From Streptacidiphilus pinicola (GTDB lineage: Bacteria > Actinomycetota > Actinomycetes > Streptomycetales > Streptomycetaceae), in the NCBI RefSeq assembly GCF_003258295.1, contig NZ_QKYN01000073.1:1-50721 (forward strand): 50,721 nucleotides of DNA. Reading direction: 5' to 3'. The notes under the pieces were generated by a model, which saw nothing but the letters and a program-made list of their open reading frames with translations, was not told where the DNA came from and ran no database searches. Below are positions 6,168 to 49,528 of the stretch, one piece after another (the first letter of the stretch is position 1; the number at the start of each line of letters is the position of its first letter). The translations under genes and the position numbers were made by a program.

Positions 6168-6325
6168 ATGGACGGCGAGTTGTGGGCGGCGATCGGGCCG
6201 ATCCTGCCTCCCTGAGCCGGGCGTTGCCCCAGTCCAGGCCCGTTCTGGACCGGCTTCGCTGACATGGCAAACCGTTCGTGCTCTACATCGGGATCCCCTG
6301 GCAGCATTCGCCGTTGGAGCTGGCC
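6168..6325 (+). pseudogene. IS5-type transposase relic
   Basis: MDGELWAAIGPILPP at 6168 resembles the N-terminus of IS5-like transposases, and after a stop and frame change FVLYIGIPWQHSPLELG resembles their conserved YVLHTGIPWxxLP-ELG segment. Stops and frameshifts break it. It fills most of the gap between the lipoprotein and DUF427 genes. Confidence 0.5.
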
Positions 6326-8060: not shown

Positions 8061-8140
8061 GTTGGGGAGGAGTTGGCCAGACCGTGACCACCCCGCGGCC
8101 GACGGCACCCGGTGCGGGGACAGCGCCGGTCCGACCTGGT
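8061..8140 (+). repeat. dispersed repeat copy A (see 46802-46881)
   Basis: GTTGGGGAGGAGTTGGCCAG opens an approximately 80-base stretch recurring in the same orientation at 46802-46881 with scattered differences. Copy A lies just beyond the 5' break of the permease remnant. Its nature is unknown; a relic of a mobile element is the simplest reading. Confidence 0.6.
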
Positions 8141-8228
8141 GGGTCTTCAGCCTGAGCCTGGTCCGCCCGCAGGTGACCTGGGCCGTCAGCGTGGTGCCGA
8201 TGGCGCGCGGATGGACGTAGTCGACTGT

Positions 8229-8525
8229 CTAGTCGGTCACCACGTTGAAGGCCTGGTAGACGGTCGGTTCGCCCATGGGCATTCCGGCCTTCTGCATCAG
8301 CGGCGCGAGCTTCTCCCCGAACTTCGCGAACGCGTCCTCGGACTCCCAGACGTCCGTTACGAACCATCCCGTGGGGCTGGGTCCGGCCGCGTGCGAGATC
8401 AGGCCGGGGACCGGCCAGTCCTTCCGGTTCCGCACCAGGCCGCGTCCGCCGGTCATCTCATTGGTGACCTGCTCGTACTGGGCCTGTGTCCCGCCGGGGA
8501 TCTCGAAGACGGTGATGATCGCCAT
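8229..8525 (-). CDS. small ABM-superfamily-like protein
   Basis: The 98-residue protein starts with MAIITVFEIPGGTQAQYEQV and contains a GWFVTDVWESEDAFAKFGEK segment, matching the dimeric alpha-beta barrel pattern of antibiotic-biosynthesis-monooxygenase-like proteins. Many such proteins are uncharacterised stress or cofactor-free oxygenase proteins. An AGAGAGG site lies just upstream of the ATG. It is alone on its strand. Confidence 0.75.
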   Translation of the reverse strand: MAIITVFEIPGGTQAQYEQVTNEMTGGRGLVRNRKDWPVPGLISHAAGPSPTGWFVTDVWESEDAFAKFGEKLAPLMQKAGMPMGEPTVYQAFNVVTD

Positions 8526-8842
<317 letters not shown>

Positions 8843-9436
8843 TCAGGCGATCGCCGTCGTTCCGGTGGCGTCGGCCGCGGCTATTGACGGTGCTGGGGCC
8901 TCGACCTCGTAGGTCAGCTTTACGATCTTCGAGAAGGTCTTCACGGCCGTGAGCCGCAGCTTGGCGTCTTGCCCCTCTCGAAAGAACTGCTTCCCGCCCC
9001 CTGCCAGAAATGGGTAGATGGTGAGGTCTATCGCATCGATCAGTCGCTCCCGTAGCAGAGTTTCCCCGAGCAGGCCGTGGCCCATGATCAGCAGGTTCCC
9101 CCCGTCCTGCTGCTTGAGCCTGGCCACCTCGGCGATGACATCGCCTCGAACGACAGTCGGGTTGCCCCAGCCGGGGTTCTCCAGCGTCGAGCTGAACACG
9201 TACTTCGGGATTGTGGTGAGACGGTCGGCCCACATTGCCTTGTGGCCCCTACCGCCGTACAGCTCAGCGAACGCCTCGTAGGTGCGGCGGCCGAACAAAA
9301 TGGCGTCGCACGCCGTCAACAGGCCCAAGCCGTCTCGCAGGTAGGCTTCATCTTGGTACTCGCCGACTCCCATGGCCACCGGGTCCTCGAAGACACCGTC
9401 CGCCGAGACCAGCACGTACTCGATCACCTTCCGCAT
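8843..9436 (-). CDS. dihydrofolate reductase family (RibD C-terminal-like) protein
   Basis: The 197-residue protein begins at ATG 9436, which has GGAGG at good spacing; the frame is open further up to 9802 without homology. It has the reductase fold of the RibD/DHFR superfamily: VIEYVLVSADGVFED, AILFGRRTYEAF, TTIPKYVFSSTL, GGNLLIMGHGLLGETLL and LTIYPFLAGGGKQFF. Such stand-alone proteins are predicted NAD(P)H-dependent reductases of unknown substrate and rarely act in folate synthesis. It is a single gene with no partner. Confidence 0.85.
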   Translation of the reverse strand: MRKVIEYVLVSADGVFEDPVAMGVGEYQDEAYLRDGLGLLTACDAILFGRRTYEAFAELYGGRGHKAMWADRLTTIPKYVFSSTLENPGWGNPTVVRGDVIAEVARLKQQDGGNLLIMGHGLLGETLLRERLIDAIDLTIYPFLAGGGKQFFREGQDAKLRLTAVKTFSKIVKLTYEVEAPAPSIAAADATGTTAIA

Positions 9437-9691
9437 AGCGCCGACCTCCATCGGTCGAACTCGCGGTGCCCGTTCCAGAACCGGCACCTCTCCGTGTCCT
9501 TCATATAGACCCCGGCCGCCCGGAAAACTGAGCGGTCCGGCAACGCCGGTTTCTCTTCTGTCGCGGCCGACTGGCTGGCCGACCGCCGCGGTCTGCGGAG
9601 GTTCGCCGAGACCCGCGCATGGACCGTGACAAGGGCCCCTACTACGTCGACGGCACTGGCCACGCGGGACAGGGGCCGCGACGCCGACATT

Positions 9692-9838
9692 CGCGAGTTC
9701 GGCAAGCCCCCGGCTGGCCAGCCCAGTCTGTGGTGCGGGTGGGAGCCCACGATGATGGGGCTGGGATCCAATGGAACCGGCGCGAGAAGTTCTACGACTC
9801 ATCCGAGTGGATGGCCTACCTGGTCGACCACTTTCTGA
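9692..9838 (+). pseudogene. frameshifted hypothetical-protein remnant
   Basis: One frame reads REFGKPPAGQPSLWCGWEPT; the neighbouring frame then continues DDGAGIQWNRREKFYDSSEW and MAYLVDHFL. Together they look like one protein of the type LWCxW-WxxxEKFYxxxEWMxYLIDHF, split by a single-base frameshift near 9750. No intact start or C-terminus remains. Confidence 0.45.
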
Positions 9839-10446
9839 GGTGCTTCACCCGTCACTTCGGCACCTGCCCCGGCACATTCAGCCACATCCACCAGGGCCTG
9901 TAGCAGTGACGTGAAGGCCAGGTGGCAGGCGCGCGGTCCGATGCTATTCGATTGCCATTCGATGCGCTTCGACAGCGCTTCGACAGTGATCCGGTGAAAG
10001 ACATGTGTCTTGCTGCGCAGAGCCTTGTTGTTCAGGCGACCTGTCATTACTGTCCATGGTCAAGCGCTTCGACACTTCGCACCTGCGTCCGGCAAGGGGA
10101 CAGCCGTTCCCGCAGTTTTTGAGTGCGCCACCTCGACGAGCTGAGCCACCTCCCATCGCGAGCAGCACTGCACGCCAACGGAGCGAAGGTGTCAACACGT
10201 CAGCTGATCGACCGTTTCGGCCGCTTGGCGTTCGGCGGGGACTCCAACTTCGAGCACTGGATGGAACAACTTCGCCCAGGACCGGCCATCAAGCCGATCA
10301 GTCGGCCAACTGCGCAAGCACCTTGGACGAGGCTGGGTAGCGCCGTCCCGAGCCCGGACTCGCCGACGAGCGACACCTCGCGGCGCCAGAGTCCGCCACC
10401 AGACGGGGGCTCCGGAAACACTCCATCGCCGTCCTTGGAGGGACAC
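9839..10446. other. gene-free region upstream of the GH12 gene
   Basis: Open frames here lack convincing homology. The region holds three copies of an 11-base motif (9964-10074, listed separately) and the leader of the glucanase gene. I see no other gene. Confidence 0.4.
9964..10074 (+). promoter_or_regulatory. three 11-bp direct repeats, candidate regulator sites
   Basis: GCGCTTCGACA occurs in tandem at 9964-9974 and 9975-9985 and again at 10064-10074, exactly 100 bases from the first copy. All are upstream of the secreted glucanase gene. The embedded AGCGCTT resembles half-sites of LacI-type sugar repressors, but no repressor gene lies next to it. Function is inferred. Confidence 0.4.
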
Positions 10447-11211
10447 ATGAGATGGCAATCCCGTAAATCCAGCAGCAGCAAGTCGGCCGGGTTCGGTCGG
10501 CTGGCCGTGATCGGCGCCGTGATCGCCGGGGTTCTGAGCTTCGCGGCTCCGGCGCAGGCCCAGGTGTACTCCACGTGCGACCAGTGGGGCAGTTACACCC
10601 AGGGCACCTGGACGATCTACAACGACGTCTGGGGCCAGAACCACGGCCTGCAGTGCCTGACCGTCAACAGCATCAAGTCCTGGTCCGTCGATTCCACCCA
10701 GTCCGGCGGCGGGGTCAAGTCCTACCCGAACACCGGAGTCCGACCCCAAACGCCGCTGTCGCAGCTGAACTCGGCGGGCTTCTGGTACAACAACTCGTCG
10801 GCCCCCACCGCCGGCAGTGACTACTGGGACTGGACGGGCGACATCTGGTCGACCAACAACCAGGACGAGATCATGACCTTCACCAGCTGGAACGGGGCGA
10901 CCGGTGGCTGGGGGAGCCAGATCGCGTCCAACGTGACCATCGGCGGCGTCCTGTACGCGTCGGTCTGGCAGGCCAATCCCGGCTGGAATGTCCTGCAGCT
11001 CTTTCCCGCCCAGCAGACCAACTCCGGCACGGTCGACGTCTCGGCGGTCTGGCGATGGGCCGCGTCGCAGAACCTCTTGCGCAACACCACCCTCGACACG
11101 ATGCAGTACGGCATTGAGATCACCTCGACCAGCGGCGTGCAGAAGCAGTACTCGCTGAACGCCTACAGCGCCTGGTGGAGCAACACCTCCGGCGGCGGAT
11201 CAAGCATCTAA
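10447..11211 (+). CDS. secreted GH12-type endoglucanase
   Basis: The 254-residue protein starts at ATG 10447 after GGAGGG. A Sec signal peptide (about residues 1-38, ending APAQA) precedes one catalytic domain with a GH12 pattern: the opening CDQWGSYTQGTWTIYNDVWG, a central WSTNNQDEIMTFTSW (candidate nucleophile Glu) and a late MQYGIEITSTSG (candidate acid/base Glu). GH12 enzymes cut beta-1,4-glucans or xyloglucan outside the cell. No carbohydrate-binding module is attached, and a short Gly/Ser tail ends the protein. The frame is open upstream to 10123, but only the 10447 start gives a signal peptide. Confidence 0.8.
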   Translation: MRWQSRKSSSSKSAGFGRLAVIGAVIAGVLSFAAPAQAQVYSTCDQWGSYTQGTWTIYNDVWGQNHGLQCLTVNSIKSWSVDSTQSGGGVKSYPNTGVRPQTPLSQLNSAGFWYNNSSAPTAGSDYWDWTGDIWSTNNQDEIMTFTSWNGATGGWGSQIASNVTIGGVLYASVWQANPGWNVLQLFPAQQTNSGTVDVSAVWRWAASQNLLRNTTLDTMQYGIEITSTSGVQKQYSLNAYSAWWSNTSGGGSSI

Positions 11212-45972: not shown

Positions 45973-46001
45973 CAGGCTGCGACCTCCTCTCGTTCCACGA
46001 G

Positions 46002-46280
46002 TTGACCGTTCTCGAACGTCGCGCCGGCTTCGACCTCGACGCCCAGCGGGACCAGGCGGTCGCCGCGCTGGAGGAGCTGATCGCCGCCAAGGTCGGCATG
46101 GGCGAAGCCCCGCACGAGGCTGAGCCAATGCCGCGCGGCGAGCCAGTGGTCGACCTCATGGCCGCGCTGCGAGCCTCCATCGCGGAGACGACCGCCGCGC
46201 GGGAAGCCGAGGCGGCCCCAGCGAAGAAGAGAGCCACGAAGAAGGCTCCGACGAAGCGGGCGCCGAGGAAGGCCGGCTGA
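46002..46280 (+). pseudogene. Ku DNA-end-binding protein, C-terminal fragment
   Basis: The frame QRDQAVAALEELIAAK then PVVDLMAALRASIAETTAAR and a Lys/Ala/Thr-rich tail (KKRATKKAPTKRAPRKAG) matches the C-terminal region of bacterial Ku, including its DNA-binding basic tail. The large N-terminal Ku beta-barrel core (about 200 residues) is absent and only a TTG start is available. A related basic-tailed DNA-binding protein is an alternative. Confidence 0.5.
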
Positions 46281-46390
46281 CCTGTCAGCCGAGGGTCTTA
46301 CCGTCGAAGGCGCGCACGAGTCCGCGTAGAGCCGCAGGCAGAGCGCGACGAGCCGGGCACTCCGATGACGGTAGAGCCGGCCCGACTGCG

Positions 46391-46774
46391 TCAGAATCCG
46401 TACACCGCCTGATGCCACAGATTGAACGCGACCGCCCACGTCAGCGTTTGCTCCGCGAAGTTCGCCGGCACCTTGTGCACCTTCGTCTCACCGGCCTGGG
46501 TCGCGACGATCACCGTGACGTGCCCGGTCTTCTTCTTGGCGCCGAGTGCGAAAAGACCGATCGTAAGGGCGCGGGTGACGGTGACGCGGCGGCCAGTCTG
46601 GTCGAGGGTCTGCACGGTGCACTGCGAGACGTGCCGTGTCCACTTCTGCCACAGCGCCCCGACGGACAGGTTCCCCTTCGCGTCGATGCTGATCTGCGAG
46701 CCGAACGGGGGCCGCGGCGCCTTCGGTGGCGGCTGCGGCGGCAAGTGGGGAAGCCCGGGCGGTGGCATCGTCAT
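46391..46774 (-). CDS. hypothetical protein, PH-like domain
   Basis: From ATG 46774 the protein is 127 residues with a Pro-rich N-terminus (PPPGLPHLPPQPPPKAPRPP) and a beta-rich body (GRRVTVTRALTIGLFALGAK, KKTGHVTVIVATQAGETKVH). It ends in a helix (AEQTLTWAVAFNLWH). The body resembles bacterial PH-like modules. The frame is open further upstream to 47080 but crosses repeat DNA, so I reject that extension. The gene lies on the minus strand downstream of the left inverted repeat at 46898-46961. Confidence 0.6.
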   Translation of the reverse strand: MTMPPPGLPHLPPQPPPKAPRPPFGSQISIDAKGNLSVGALWQKWTRHVSQCTVQTLDQTGRRVTVTRALTIGLFALGAKKKTGHVTVIVATQAGETKVHKVPANFAEQTLTWAVAFNLWHQAVYGF

Positions 46775-46801
46775 GCCGGAATTGTGACGCCGTGGCTTCC
46801 G

Positions 46802-46881
46802 GTTGGGGAGGAGTTGGTCAGACCGTGACCAACCCGCAGTCGACGTCGACCCCGGTGCGGGGACGGCGCCGGCCCGATCTC
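46802..46881 (+). repeat. dispersed repeat copy B (see 8061-8140)
   Basis: The stretch beginning GTTGGGGAGGAGTTGGTCAG matches copy A at 8061 in the same orientation over about 80 bases with scattered substitutions. It ends about 17 bases before the left inverted repeat. Confidence 0.6.
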
Positions 46882-46897
46882 GCGGGTCTGCTCTCGC

Positions 46898-46961
46898 TGT
46901 CCTGTGCCCATCGGAGCTTGAGTGCGTGCCATTGAACCTTGATCGACGCGATTCTGTGCCA
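46898..46961 (-). repeat. left copy of a 64-bp inverted repeat
   Basis: Reads TGTCCTGTGCCCATCGGAGC to TTCTGTGCCA on the plus strand. Its reverse complement recurs at 48240-48302 with one indel and only a few mismatches. It lies 22 bases past the stop of the 374-residue gene and 123 bases upstream of the start of the PH-like gene. Confidence 0.85.
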
Positions 46962-46983
46962 TCGAAGGGGCTGACTAGCGGCC

Positions 46984-48108
46984 TCAGCGGGCGGCCTTCT
47001 TCTGCAGGACCCATACGTAGTGCCACTTGCCCTGTGTGCGTTTGGGTTTGGTGTCGGCGAACGCCTGGATGGTCGGCCACAGGCCCGTGGCGCCGGCCGC
47101 GATCGTCGCGGTGAAGCCGAGCGCACCTTGGAGGGCCTCGGGGCGGACTGCGGCAAGGACAGCGCTTGTCGTACCCAGTACGGCGCCGGAGCGGCTGAGG
47201 GCCCGGGACCGGGACGTGCTGCTCATTTGCGCGGTAGCCGCGTTCACCTCGTCACGGATGGAGAGCGCGATCCGTTCCAGGGCCACCTGGGAGTCGACCG
47301 CTTCCAGCGCGCCGTCGAGTTCGAGGAGCCGGGAGCGCATGAAATCGCGGTACTGCCTGTAGGAGTCGAACTCCTCCCTGGTGACTTGAGCGAAGTCGGC
47401 GAGGCTGAGCCCATCGATGAAGGGCAGATCGATCTCCAGGACCGGCCGGACCACCCGGCTGGCAAGGGGCTTGGTCCCCGCCAGATCCACGGCGCGGCCA
47501 TGCTCTACCACGAAGTCGATCGACCGGTCACTGAACGACGGCAGCGGACCGGGCTCGCTATACGACTGATCATCACGCCGCCCCGCGCGTCCTTTTGTGA
47601 AGACCGGCCCGTACCAGACCAGCCCGCTGCGCAGCAGGGGTTCAGCATCCAAGAGCCACTGCCCCAACTGGACGAGATCGTTGGTCACCAACCCGTAGAG
47701 ATATGTCTCGATCCGGGTAGAGGGCAGTTGTTCTCCCCCAATCCCTGGCACGGCAGGACTTGAAAGGTCCTCACGCTGCTCCCCGAGTCTGTGCACTGCT
47801 CCGATGCCGTGGTCGGACAACAGCATCGTGTCCGCGACCAGGACGACCCGCTTGGTGACATGCGTGAAGCTTCCCATCTCCGAGGACAGTCCGACGTAGT
47901 ACGGGGAGGTCGCGGCTGCCTTCGTGCTCAGGAGACGCTCGTAGTCGGCGTAGAGCGTGCGGGCATAGGTGAGGGCGACGTCCCGGGGAGAGGCCCTTTC
48001 CGGCTCCACGAGCGAGTCGTAGAACTCGTTCATCCAGACGGCCACACCCCGGTTCTGATATGCGCGGAGGTCCTGCCACGCTCGCCATCCACGTCGGAAC
48101 ATACGCAC
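46984..48108 (-). CDS. unknown protein between inverted repeats
   Basis: The 374-residue frame starts at GTG 48108 or ATG 48102. The protein is mostly alpha-helical and soluble in its first two thirds (NEFYDSLVEPERASPRDVAL, GLVTNDLVQLGQWLLDAEPL, VLEIDLPFIDGLSLADFAQV). A Ser/Arg-rich stretch follows and then hydrophobic segments near the C-terminus (GTTSAVLAAVRPEALQGALG and FTATIAAGATGLWPTIQAFA). I do not recognise a family. It sits alone between the 64-bp inverted repeats, so it may be cargo of a mobile unit. Confidence 0.6.
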   Translation of the reverse strand: MRMFRRGWRAWQDLRAYQNRGVAVWMNEFYDSLVEPERASPRDVALTYARTLYADYERLLSTKAAATSPYYVGLSSEMGSFTHVTKRVVLVADTMLLSDHGIGAVHRLGEQREDLSSPAVPGIGGEQLPSTRIETYLYGLVTNDLVQLGQWLLDAEPLLRSGLVWYGPVFTKGRAGRRDDQSYSEPGPLPSFSDRSIDFVVEHGRAVDLAGTKPLASRVVRPVLEIDLPFIDGLSLADFAQVTREEFDSYRQYRDFMRSRLLELDGALEAVDSQVALERIALSIRDEVNAATAQMSSTSRSRALSRSGAVLGTTSAVLAAVRPEALQGALGFTATIAAGATGLWPTIQAFADTKPKRTQGKWHYVWVLQKKAAR

Positions 48109-48239
48109 AGCATTGCCCGTAGTCGAGCACCCCGTCCAGCGATCAACTCCCAGCGAAGCACAATGCGAACGGGCGCCCCCCCGGGTTGGTTTGTCGGTAG
48201 CTCAGCCGCTCCAGCCGACTGGGGGCGATCAATCTTGTG

Positions 48240-48302
48240 TGGCACAGAATCGCGTCGATCAAGGTTCAATGGCCCGCACTCAAGCTCCGCTGGCACAGGA
48301 CA
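48240..48302 (+). repeat. right copy of a 64-bp inverted repeat
   Basis: Starts TGGCACAGAATCGCGTCGAT and ends CTGGCACAGGACA, the inverse of 46898-46961. TGGCACAG is present at both ends of this copy (48240 and 48291). It is 132 bases upstream of the start of the 374-residue gene and 162 bases upstream of the GNAT gene on the plus strand. Confidence 0.85.
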
Positions 48303-48464
48303 CTCGCGCCAGTAGATGCGTCCGCTTCCGAGCATGACATAATCGAACACATGAGCGACTTCCAGGGTGTGAAGCCCAGCGGCTGGCCCGAGCACGTGTG
48401 ACTCGTCTAGATAGGTGTCACTTGGTCGCGACAACTGTCACCCGGAACGCGCGGAGGACCTAAG
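48303..48464. other. leader region of the GNAT gene with TGTCAC motifs
   Basis: No gene is seen. TGTCAC occurs at about 48416 and 48437. The first motif is preceded by GTCTAGATAG. These may be traces of a mobile-element end. Confidence 0.4.
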
Positions 48465-49001
48465 GTGATCGGAATGAGCGATGGACCCGTGATGCTGCGT
48501 CCCGTGGCCGAGGACGACTTGTCGGTGCTCGAGCGGTTTCTCACGGATCCTGAGGCGACTGGGCCGTTCCAATGGCTCGGCTGGTCGGATCCCGGGCGGT
48601 GGCGACGACGCTGGGCGCAGGACGGTCTGCTCGGCGATGACAGCGGCCAGCTGATGGTGGTGACTGATGCCGACAGGCTCGGCTTCGTGGCATGGCGGAA
48701 GGTCGTGACGTCGCGGAGCTCGTACTGCTGGAATGTCGGAGCCCAACTGCTGCCGGAGGGCCGGGGCCGCGGGGTCGGCACACAGGCACAGCGACTGCTG
48801 GCACGCTACCTTTTCGCCCACACACCAGTGGTCAGACTTGAAGCGGACACCGAGACGGAGAACACCGCCGAGCAGCGCGCACTGGAGAAATGCGGCTTCA
48901 CCCGTGAAGGCCTGCTACGAAGCACTGTGTTCCGGGACGGGCAGTGGCGGGACGTCGTCCGCTACAGCATGCTCCGCAGCGACAGCCTCGGACAGCGGTG
49001 A
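48465..49001 (+). CDS. GNAT-family N-acetyltransferase
   Basis: The 178-residue protein starts at GTG 48465, which has GGAGG; ATG 48474 is an alternative. The fold is visible in MLRPVAEDDLSVLERFLTD, the acetyl-CoA loop GAQLLPEGRGRGVGTQAQRL (Q/R-x-x-G-x-G/A type) and the C-terminal TENTAEQRALEKCGFTREGL with a LRSTVFRDGQWRDVVRYSML strand pair. It resembles RimJ/RimL-type enzymes that acetylate protein N-termini or small amines. The substrate is unknown. TGTCAC/GTGACA motifs lie on both sides of the gene. Confidence 0.88.
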   Translation: MIGMSDGPVMLRPVAEDDLSVLERFLTDPEATGPFQWLGWSDPGRWRRRWAQDGLLGDDSGQLMVVTDADRLGFVAWRKVVTSRSSYCWNVGAQLLPEGRGRGVGTQAQRLLARYLFAHTPVVRLEADTETENTAEQRALEKCGFTREGLLRSTVFRDGQWRDVVRYSMLRSDSLGQR

Positions 49002-49115
49002 CAACTGCGCCGAAAACTGGGAGCAGGTGACAACCAGCCCGACCATCTGGTGACAAGAAGCGTGACCACCACACCGCTGAAGCCCAGATCATCCGCCGAG
49101 TCGGTGACAGTTATC
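48990..49115 (+). repeat. cluster of GTGACA motifs after the GNAT gene
   Basis: GTGACA occurs at about 49000, 49026, 49051 and 49105, mirrored by TGTCAC at 48416 and 48437 upstream of the gene. The spacing is irregular. Such clusters occur at ends of some transposable elements, but no transposase is present. Confidence 0.35.
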
Positions 49116-49528
49116 TCGACCAGTCACAGCACGTCGACGCCCCCGGCGTCACCGGCGGCCCCTGGGAGCAGTCCGCCGCGAAGTGGCTGTTCGAGCAAGC
49201 CCCAGGCCAGTGGCGGAACTACCACGTTCTCCGCAAGAACCCGATCATGCTCGCCCGCGATGTCCGCTACCTCCTCCAGAGCTACATCCAAGCCCGCAGG
49301 GACGGCTATGCCCGAGCCCGCACCGACATCGCCGCCATCATGACTGCCAGCCTCGGCCGGCGGGACGACGGCAGCTGGGTCCACCCCGACCAGATCCCCG
49401 ACATCCCGTACACCACCCTCGACGAGTACCTGAAGGTCCACGCCCAGGAAGCCGAACGGCTCAAGCAACTCCTCGCCCAAGTCCAGGTCGTCGAAGACGC
49501 CCTCACCGGCGTCCGCTGGATACCTTAA
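49056..49528 (+). CDS. hypothetical protein, likely 5'-truncated
   Basis: A protein-like frame runs from just after the GTGACA cluster to TAA 49526-49528 (HHTAEAQIIRRVGDSYLDQS, VTGGPWEQSAAKWLFEQAPG, VLRKNPIMLARDVRYLLQSY, LDEYLKVHAQEAERLKQLLA). The first in-frame ATG, at 49247, lacks a ribosome site, and conserved-looking sequence precedes it, so the true start was probably lost at the repeat cluster. The C-terminal helix looks coiled-coil. Function unknown. Confidence 0.5.

Follow-up and report, generated by a model that had tools for sequence, protein, structure and literature searches.

A single gene in Streptacidiphilus pinicola is bordered by two near-identical, inverted copies of a 64-base sequence, and the locus raises the question of whether these copies are the ends of a mobile unit or a regulatory leader that has been duplicated. 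The original prediction offered both readings. The locus lies in a stretch of 50,721 nt, referred to here as the window.

Boundaries and cargo of the unit

The unit occupies positions 46898..48302 and is 1,405 bp long, with limits that are exact to the base. It opens with TGTCCTGTGCC and closes with GGCACAGGACA, such that its first bases are TGT and its last are ACA, and an exact 5-bp duplication, CTCGC, was read on each side, with the left copy at 46893..46897 and an identical right copy at 48303..48307. The original prediction had proposed looking for target duplications just beyond the limits of the unit, and this is where they lie. Its description of near-identical 64-base inverted repeats as borders was also confirmed: BLAST places the repeat at 46898-46961 and 48240-48302, with 95% identity. 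The inverted arms at 46908-46961 and 48240-48293 are 96% complementary, and are the longest inverted pair of the region 46000-49500.

A chance repeat is ruled out by this inverted pair, by the duplication and by the site-model matches described below. MITEs are short and noncoding, whereas this unit includes a 374-aa ORF. A composite transposon would have a complete IS on each side, and the repeated ends, at just 63-64 bp, could not hold a transposase gene. In the host assembly (8.4 Mb, 281 contigs), the repeat was found at these two places only, and we found no empty site of the unit in 13 other genomes of the genus. An 88-bp stretch directly to the left of the unit (46802-46889) recurs at positions 8061-8146 of the window with 85% identity.

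The cargo is a GTG-start ORF of 374 codons on the minus strand (46984..48108), for which an alternative database prediction uses a later Met start, giving 349 aa. Among the four ORFs listed for the unit it is the longest and has the highest third-position GC (0.81). Consistent with the original description of one gene and no transposase, we found no match to TnsA, TnsB, TnsC or TniQ within the unit at E ≤ 0.01. Searches of Pfam and PADLOC up to E = 1 gave no family for the cargo protein, and NCBIfam models matched it only far below their cut-offs. Conserved residues can be seen among its homologues and its structure model is of moderate quality, with no fold or family match. Scoring of the 7,999 candidates with the most shared words gave at least 102 homologues (at least 137 in a profile search with a similar limit), mostly Streptomyces proteins annotated as hypothetical, and the majority are 65-83% identical among the matches listed. 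Homologues are encoded in 11 of 394 genomes, including that of the host, and in the other genomes no ends of this kind were found within 1.5 kb of the gene. Since the gene is present without such ends in other genomes, we take the cargo to be an ordinary gene of Streptomyces that became trapped between the ends of a transposon.

End arrays and their relatives

Each end of the unit is an array in which S1 (bases 1-25) is abutted by S2 and, after a spacer of ~10 bp, followed by S3. The right end (48240..48302, minus strand) has three sites: S1 at 48278-48297, S2 at 48257-48276 and S3 at 48227-48246, the last of which extends inward beyond the repeat. The left end (46898..46961, plus strand) has one full site, S2 at 46925-46944, and two imperfect sites. 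Left S1 carries one extra base and left S3, which starts at 46955, is only partial; for these reasons the left end may be weakened. We constructed a 20-bp site model from 56 S1 sites, one from each end of 28 other elements, leaving out the window, and scanned the whole 50.7-kb window with a cut-off of 9.5 bits. Five matches were found, the best four of which are all at the repeats: left S2 (position 46925) scored 28.3 bits, and the right-end sites at 48278, 48227 and 48257 scored 23.2, 21.3 and 20.4 bits, respectively. The fifth match, at position 6247 and apart from the repeats, scored 10.2 bits, and left-end S1 and S3 scored below the cut-off. Ten shuffles gave between 1 and 10 matches each at ≥9.5 bits, these being match counts and not top scores. 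Arrays of putative transposase sites of ~20 bp are present at both ends of the unit.

Ends of this kind are not confined to the window. By DNA similarity, 6 of 394 genomes, presumably all Streptomycetaceae, match the left end, including that of the host. A 26-base end pattern with up to two mismatches matched 65 of the 394 genomes, and a reversed control pattern matched none; the host genome is itself missed by the pattern because its ends are too diverged. We paired convergent neighbouring ends in 78 overlapping loci (L009-L086) with no criterion other than their sequence (≤7 mismatches) and a distance of 0.3-4 kb. This yielded 24 end pairs, of which 2 are on plasmid records and none is in the window. 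Exact 5-bp duplications flank 14 of the pairs, 4 have duplications with one mismatch, and 6 have two or more mismatches. For a set of 38 elements, partly chosen for having duplications, the flanks agree over a length of 5 in 29 cases, over a length of 3 in one, and over lengths of 4, 6, 7 or 8 in none; as a control, flanks paired across different elements agree in 5 of 1,406 cases. A search in which an exact duplication was required returned 17 short pairs, one of which overlaps another.

A check proposed alongside the original prediction was whether the repeat flanks different cargo elsewhere. Similar ends indeed bracket mostly unrelated genes: when the interiors of 25 units were compared with each other, protein matches at E ≤ 1e-6 occurred only within one shared cassette. 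Pfam matches for ten cargo proteins comprised DUF4238, GNAT, DUF6461, SUKH (just under the cut-off), DUF4352 and a cold-shock domain, and four of the ten had no match. The shared cassette is 613-615 bp long and is found in G077, G212 and G166, with pairwise identities of 94%, 84% and 83%. The 800-bp flanks of its three sites have no similarity to each other, and at two of the three it has its own duplication; this sister cassette appears to have moved as a unit. In two other cassettes, L052 and L053, the first ~30 codons of tnsA remain behind the left end (E values of 7e-6 and 3e-7), and these cassettes therefore derive from full elements. A VOC/glyoxalase-like gene, named by eye, has both ends and GCCGC duplications beside recA in L059; it is found elsewhere with only a diverged left end in L201 (91.5% identity over 613 bp) and without ends in L202 (92% over 525 bp). 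At L069, two units (8471-9327 and 9332-10509) are 4 bp apart, apparently with common duplication bases. On the main contig (C1) of both G087 and G134, end motifs close to one contig end are mirrored, in inverted orientation, close to the other, as would be expected if the motifs were inside terminal inverted repeats.

A scan of genome contigs for TnsB relatives identified 46 loci that encode one, whole or in part. In 12 of the 46, ends of the same kind bracket an element of 4.8-9.3 kb with exact 5-bp duplications, which were part of the criterion for this count (L133 has one mismatch), and all 12 elements have matches to TnsA, TnsB, TnsC and TniQ, some of them partial. Genome G288 has a 19.7-kb element with ACGGG duplications and tnsA, tnsB, tnsC and tniQ. 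Its tnsB and tnsC are interrupted by two groups of tyrosine-recombinase genes (L044 3397-7289, called by Pfam, and L045 276-4147, called by eye). As a reference we used a 4,671-bp element of S. netropsis (G141; L056) with the same kind of ends and intact tnsA-tnsB-tnsC-tniQ; in this element, and in L119, both ends are present and the flanks do not match.

The L056 TnsA scored 285.6 bits against NF033179 TnsA_like_Actin (cut-off 110) and was below the cut-off for Pfam TnsA (17.8 of 26.5). Its TnsB matched Mu-transpos_C (25.6 bits; cut-off 21.7) and was below the cut-off for rve (21.9 of 32.6), its TnsC matched TniB (53.8 bits; cut-off 22.4), and its TniQ-like protein was below the TniQ cut-off (22.9 of 27). 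The nearest solved TnsB and TnsC sequences are from Tn6677 and ShTns (E values of about 2e-4 and 5e-5), which we take to be CRISPR-associated transposons. In the L056 TnsB, residues 382 and 418 form a D-35-E pair within a CDHG context, and an Asp upstream of them belongs to an IDST motif; five further D-35-E spacings occur in the protein, and our reading is that the 382/418 pair and the IDST Asp are the putative catalytic residues. The ends of the window unit are 60-73% identical to those of the 14 autonomous elements compared, and we therefore assign no exact partner element.

Origin and mobility

The window unit combines transposon-type inverted ends and a target duplication with the lack of a transposase inside, and its ends are like those of an autonomous transposon. 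We are highly confident that it is a non-autonomous single-gene cassette with actinobacterial Tn7-like (TnsABC-TniQ) ends, a level of confidence that applies to its anatomy and end family. Of the two original readings, the ends of a non-autonomous mobile unit is thus the one supported, by the TGT...ACA termini, the 5-bp duplication and the similar ends of TnsABC-TniQ elements. We infer that the unit was transposed, most likely moving in by TnsAB cut-and-paste together with TnsC/TniQ, all acting in trans. TnsB supplied in trans would bind the ~20-bp subsites of both ends, TnsA/TnsB would cut out the unit together with its gene, and insertion elsewhere would be directed by TnsC/TniQ, giving rise to the 5-bp duplication. 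The gene may have come to lie between two ends when the tns genes there were lost or replaced. Unless a helper element comes into the cell, the unit is probably unable to move today.

We consider it probable that the unit arrived at its present site as a cassette, with the remaining weight going to a history as a relic. The latter, which we judge unlikely although it is the strongest of the alternatives, proposes that a full Tn7-like element inserted here and was then reduced by an internal deletion that removed tnsABC, with one gene retained or acquired at the site, and that the unit never moved as a cassette. A dead relic would be consistent with the imperfect left end and with the host assembly, in which we found neither a second copy of the unit nor a TnsB relative; a TnsB relative was found in all eight of the other genomes tested alongside, which were picked for holding ends. 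Moreover, the tnsA remnants in L052 and L053 show that deletion derivatives exist. However, the sister cassette points to movement as a unit, given its three unrelated sites with their own duplications at two, and no trace of tns genes was found in the window unit at the threshold given above. Its two ends are also 94% identical to each other over 65 bp, above the values for all 14 autonomous elements compared (65-80%). The relic and cassette readings have the anatomy in common, differ in the history, and overlap in their odds.

It is very improbable that the ends derive from another transposase family with TGT...ACA termini, such as IS481, IS21 or Tn5053-like elements, with the match to TnsB elements being due to convergence. 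Proteins of L056 do have weak NCBIfam scores of this type, the TnsB against IS481 (58.6 bits; cut-off 224) and the TniQ-region protein against IS21 (38.1 bits; cut-off 160), but the subsite sequence, the subsite spacing and the 5-bp duplication all match elements that encode TnsA, a TniB-type TnsC and a TniQ-like protein.

The neighbouring GNAT gene (48465-49001) is enclosed by a second unit, identified by its end pair and duplication. This unit is 732 bp long (48397..49128), has TGT...ACA termini and inverted ends (TGTGACTNGTCNAGATA...), and is flanked by GCACG at 48392..48396 and 49129..49133. It is separated from the first unit by 94 bp and has a different type of end. Its left-end bases 48405-48465 (61 bases) have matches at E ≤ 0.01 in 11 of 200 genomes, including that of the host; G131, G133, G001, G134, G140 and G074 match over most of the outer 38 bases, and the other four genomes match in inner parts only. 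In G133 (L215), a relative of the GNAT unit is 92.8% identical over 599 bp that include the GNAT gene; its left end is present, and its right end was looked for and not found. We found no helper element for this second end type. A regulatory leader duplicated so as to point outward at the PH-like gene on one side and the GNAT gene on the other would fit copies that are near identical and face outward, but we give this reading almost no weight, since the repeats stop exactly at the 5-bp duplication, same-kind ends bracket unrelated genes and TnsABC-TniQ genes and stop at target duplications elsewhere, the GNAT gene belongs to another unit, which has ends and a duplication of its own, and a scan of 46850-48500 (sigma-70 only, and weak as evidence) found no promoter-like or terminator-like site.

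In four loci (L053, L057, L059 and L122), an end of the first family is 219-250 bp from the recA start motif, and an end of L044 is also near recA, as recognized by the Walker A motif only. The recA-side ends belong to cassettes and an autonomous element alike. This suggests that the recA side is a favoured target. In other Streptomyces, the two sides of the recA spot are about 0.05 to 13 kb apart; one of 15 such loci has good first-family ends (L200, apparently from the same genome as L122).

Extending the cassette reading beyond the window, we tentatively propose that Streptomycetaceae hold a large, integron-like pool of single-gene cassettes moved in trans by Tn7-like machinery. The end arrays would serve as a general gene-capture frame, with new cassettes arising by replacement of tns genes or by a gene becoming trapped between ends, and some copies would insert at a preferred position immediately upstream of recA. 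The window would then contain two such cassettes, with different end types, 94 bp apart. If this is true, small genes of Streptomyces, among them those for acetyltransferase, cold-shock, SUKH-like and DUF4238 proteins, would move as cassettes served by transposons elsewhere. Antibiotic producers would then have a route for gene flow, and minimal ends for Tn7-like elements that lack experimental characterisation could be taken from nature. Helper elements in other cells could mobilise the single-gene cassettes that are scattered in soil bacteria.

Comparison with known systems

Actinobacterial Tn7-like transposons share with the window unit the TGT...ACA termini, the arrays of ~20-bp sites and the 5-bp duplication; the autonomous relatives encode TnsA, TnsB, TnsC and TniQ, whereas the unit encodes none of these. 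Judging from host and gene content, the autonomous relatives are probably the 'clade 2' of Benler et al. 2021 (PMC8649781), a survey that, in the sections concerned, describes a Tn7-like clade dominated by Actinobacteria with no member then characterised by experiment. That large survey, as its method is given there, starts from tnsB, such that tnsB-less cassettes were not searched for and units like this one would be missed (PMC8649781). The original prediction had held that being part of a known element would remove the novelty of the repeat. This applies to the autonomous class, which is in print and in NCBIfam (NF033179 TnsA_like_Actin), but not to the single-gene cassettes, no description of which was found in a literature search by title and beginning of abstract, with subscription literature mostly outside its scope. 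In the parts concerned, Faure et al. 2023 name Streptomyces only in a reagent line, and the Kitasatospora genome paper reports a TnsA-like heteromeric transposase on a megaplasmid and no cassettes.

We conclude that the window unit is, in our reading of its ends, a mobile insertion cassette (MIC) with Tn7-like ends, one of many, of a variant that we did not find described. MICs have a passenger gene between inverted transposon ends and no transposase inside, as does the window unit; classic MICs use IS ends. MIC231 of Bacillus cereus is reportedly a MIC. The window unit differs in having multi-site Tn7-like ends, for which a multi-protein transposase would be required, and in belonging to a family in which several different cargo genes share one type of end. 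The ISsaga paper, which uses the term MIC, states that a related transposase can activate some transposon-like structures that do not encode one themselves (PMC3129680). TIMEs, as described in part of the work that reports them (PMC4133298), are likewise non-autonomous, with duplications of 5-6 bp and with ends from a large transposon family that are able to mobilise the DNA enclosed by them; these miniature elements differ in being derived from Tn3, with Tn3-type ends of 38 bp, and in having been shown to move in the laboratory.

Tn7 of E. coli has TGT...ACA termini and a 5-bp duplication, as does the window unit. Like the unit, it also has multiple TnsB sites at each end, according to the relevant section of the Tn7-like survey (PMC8649781). 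The window-unit family differs from Tn7 in having no single fixed attachment site, given that its duplications and flanks vary from one insertion to the next.
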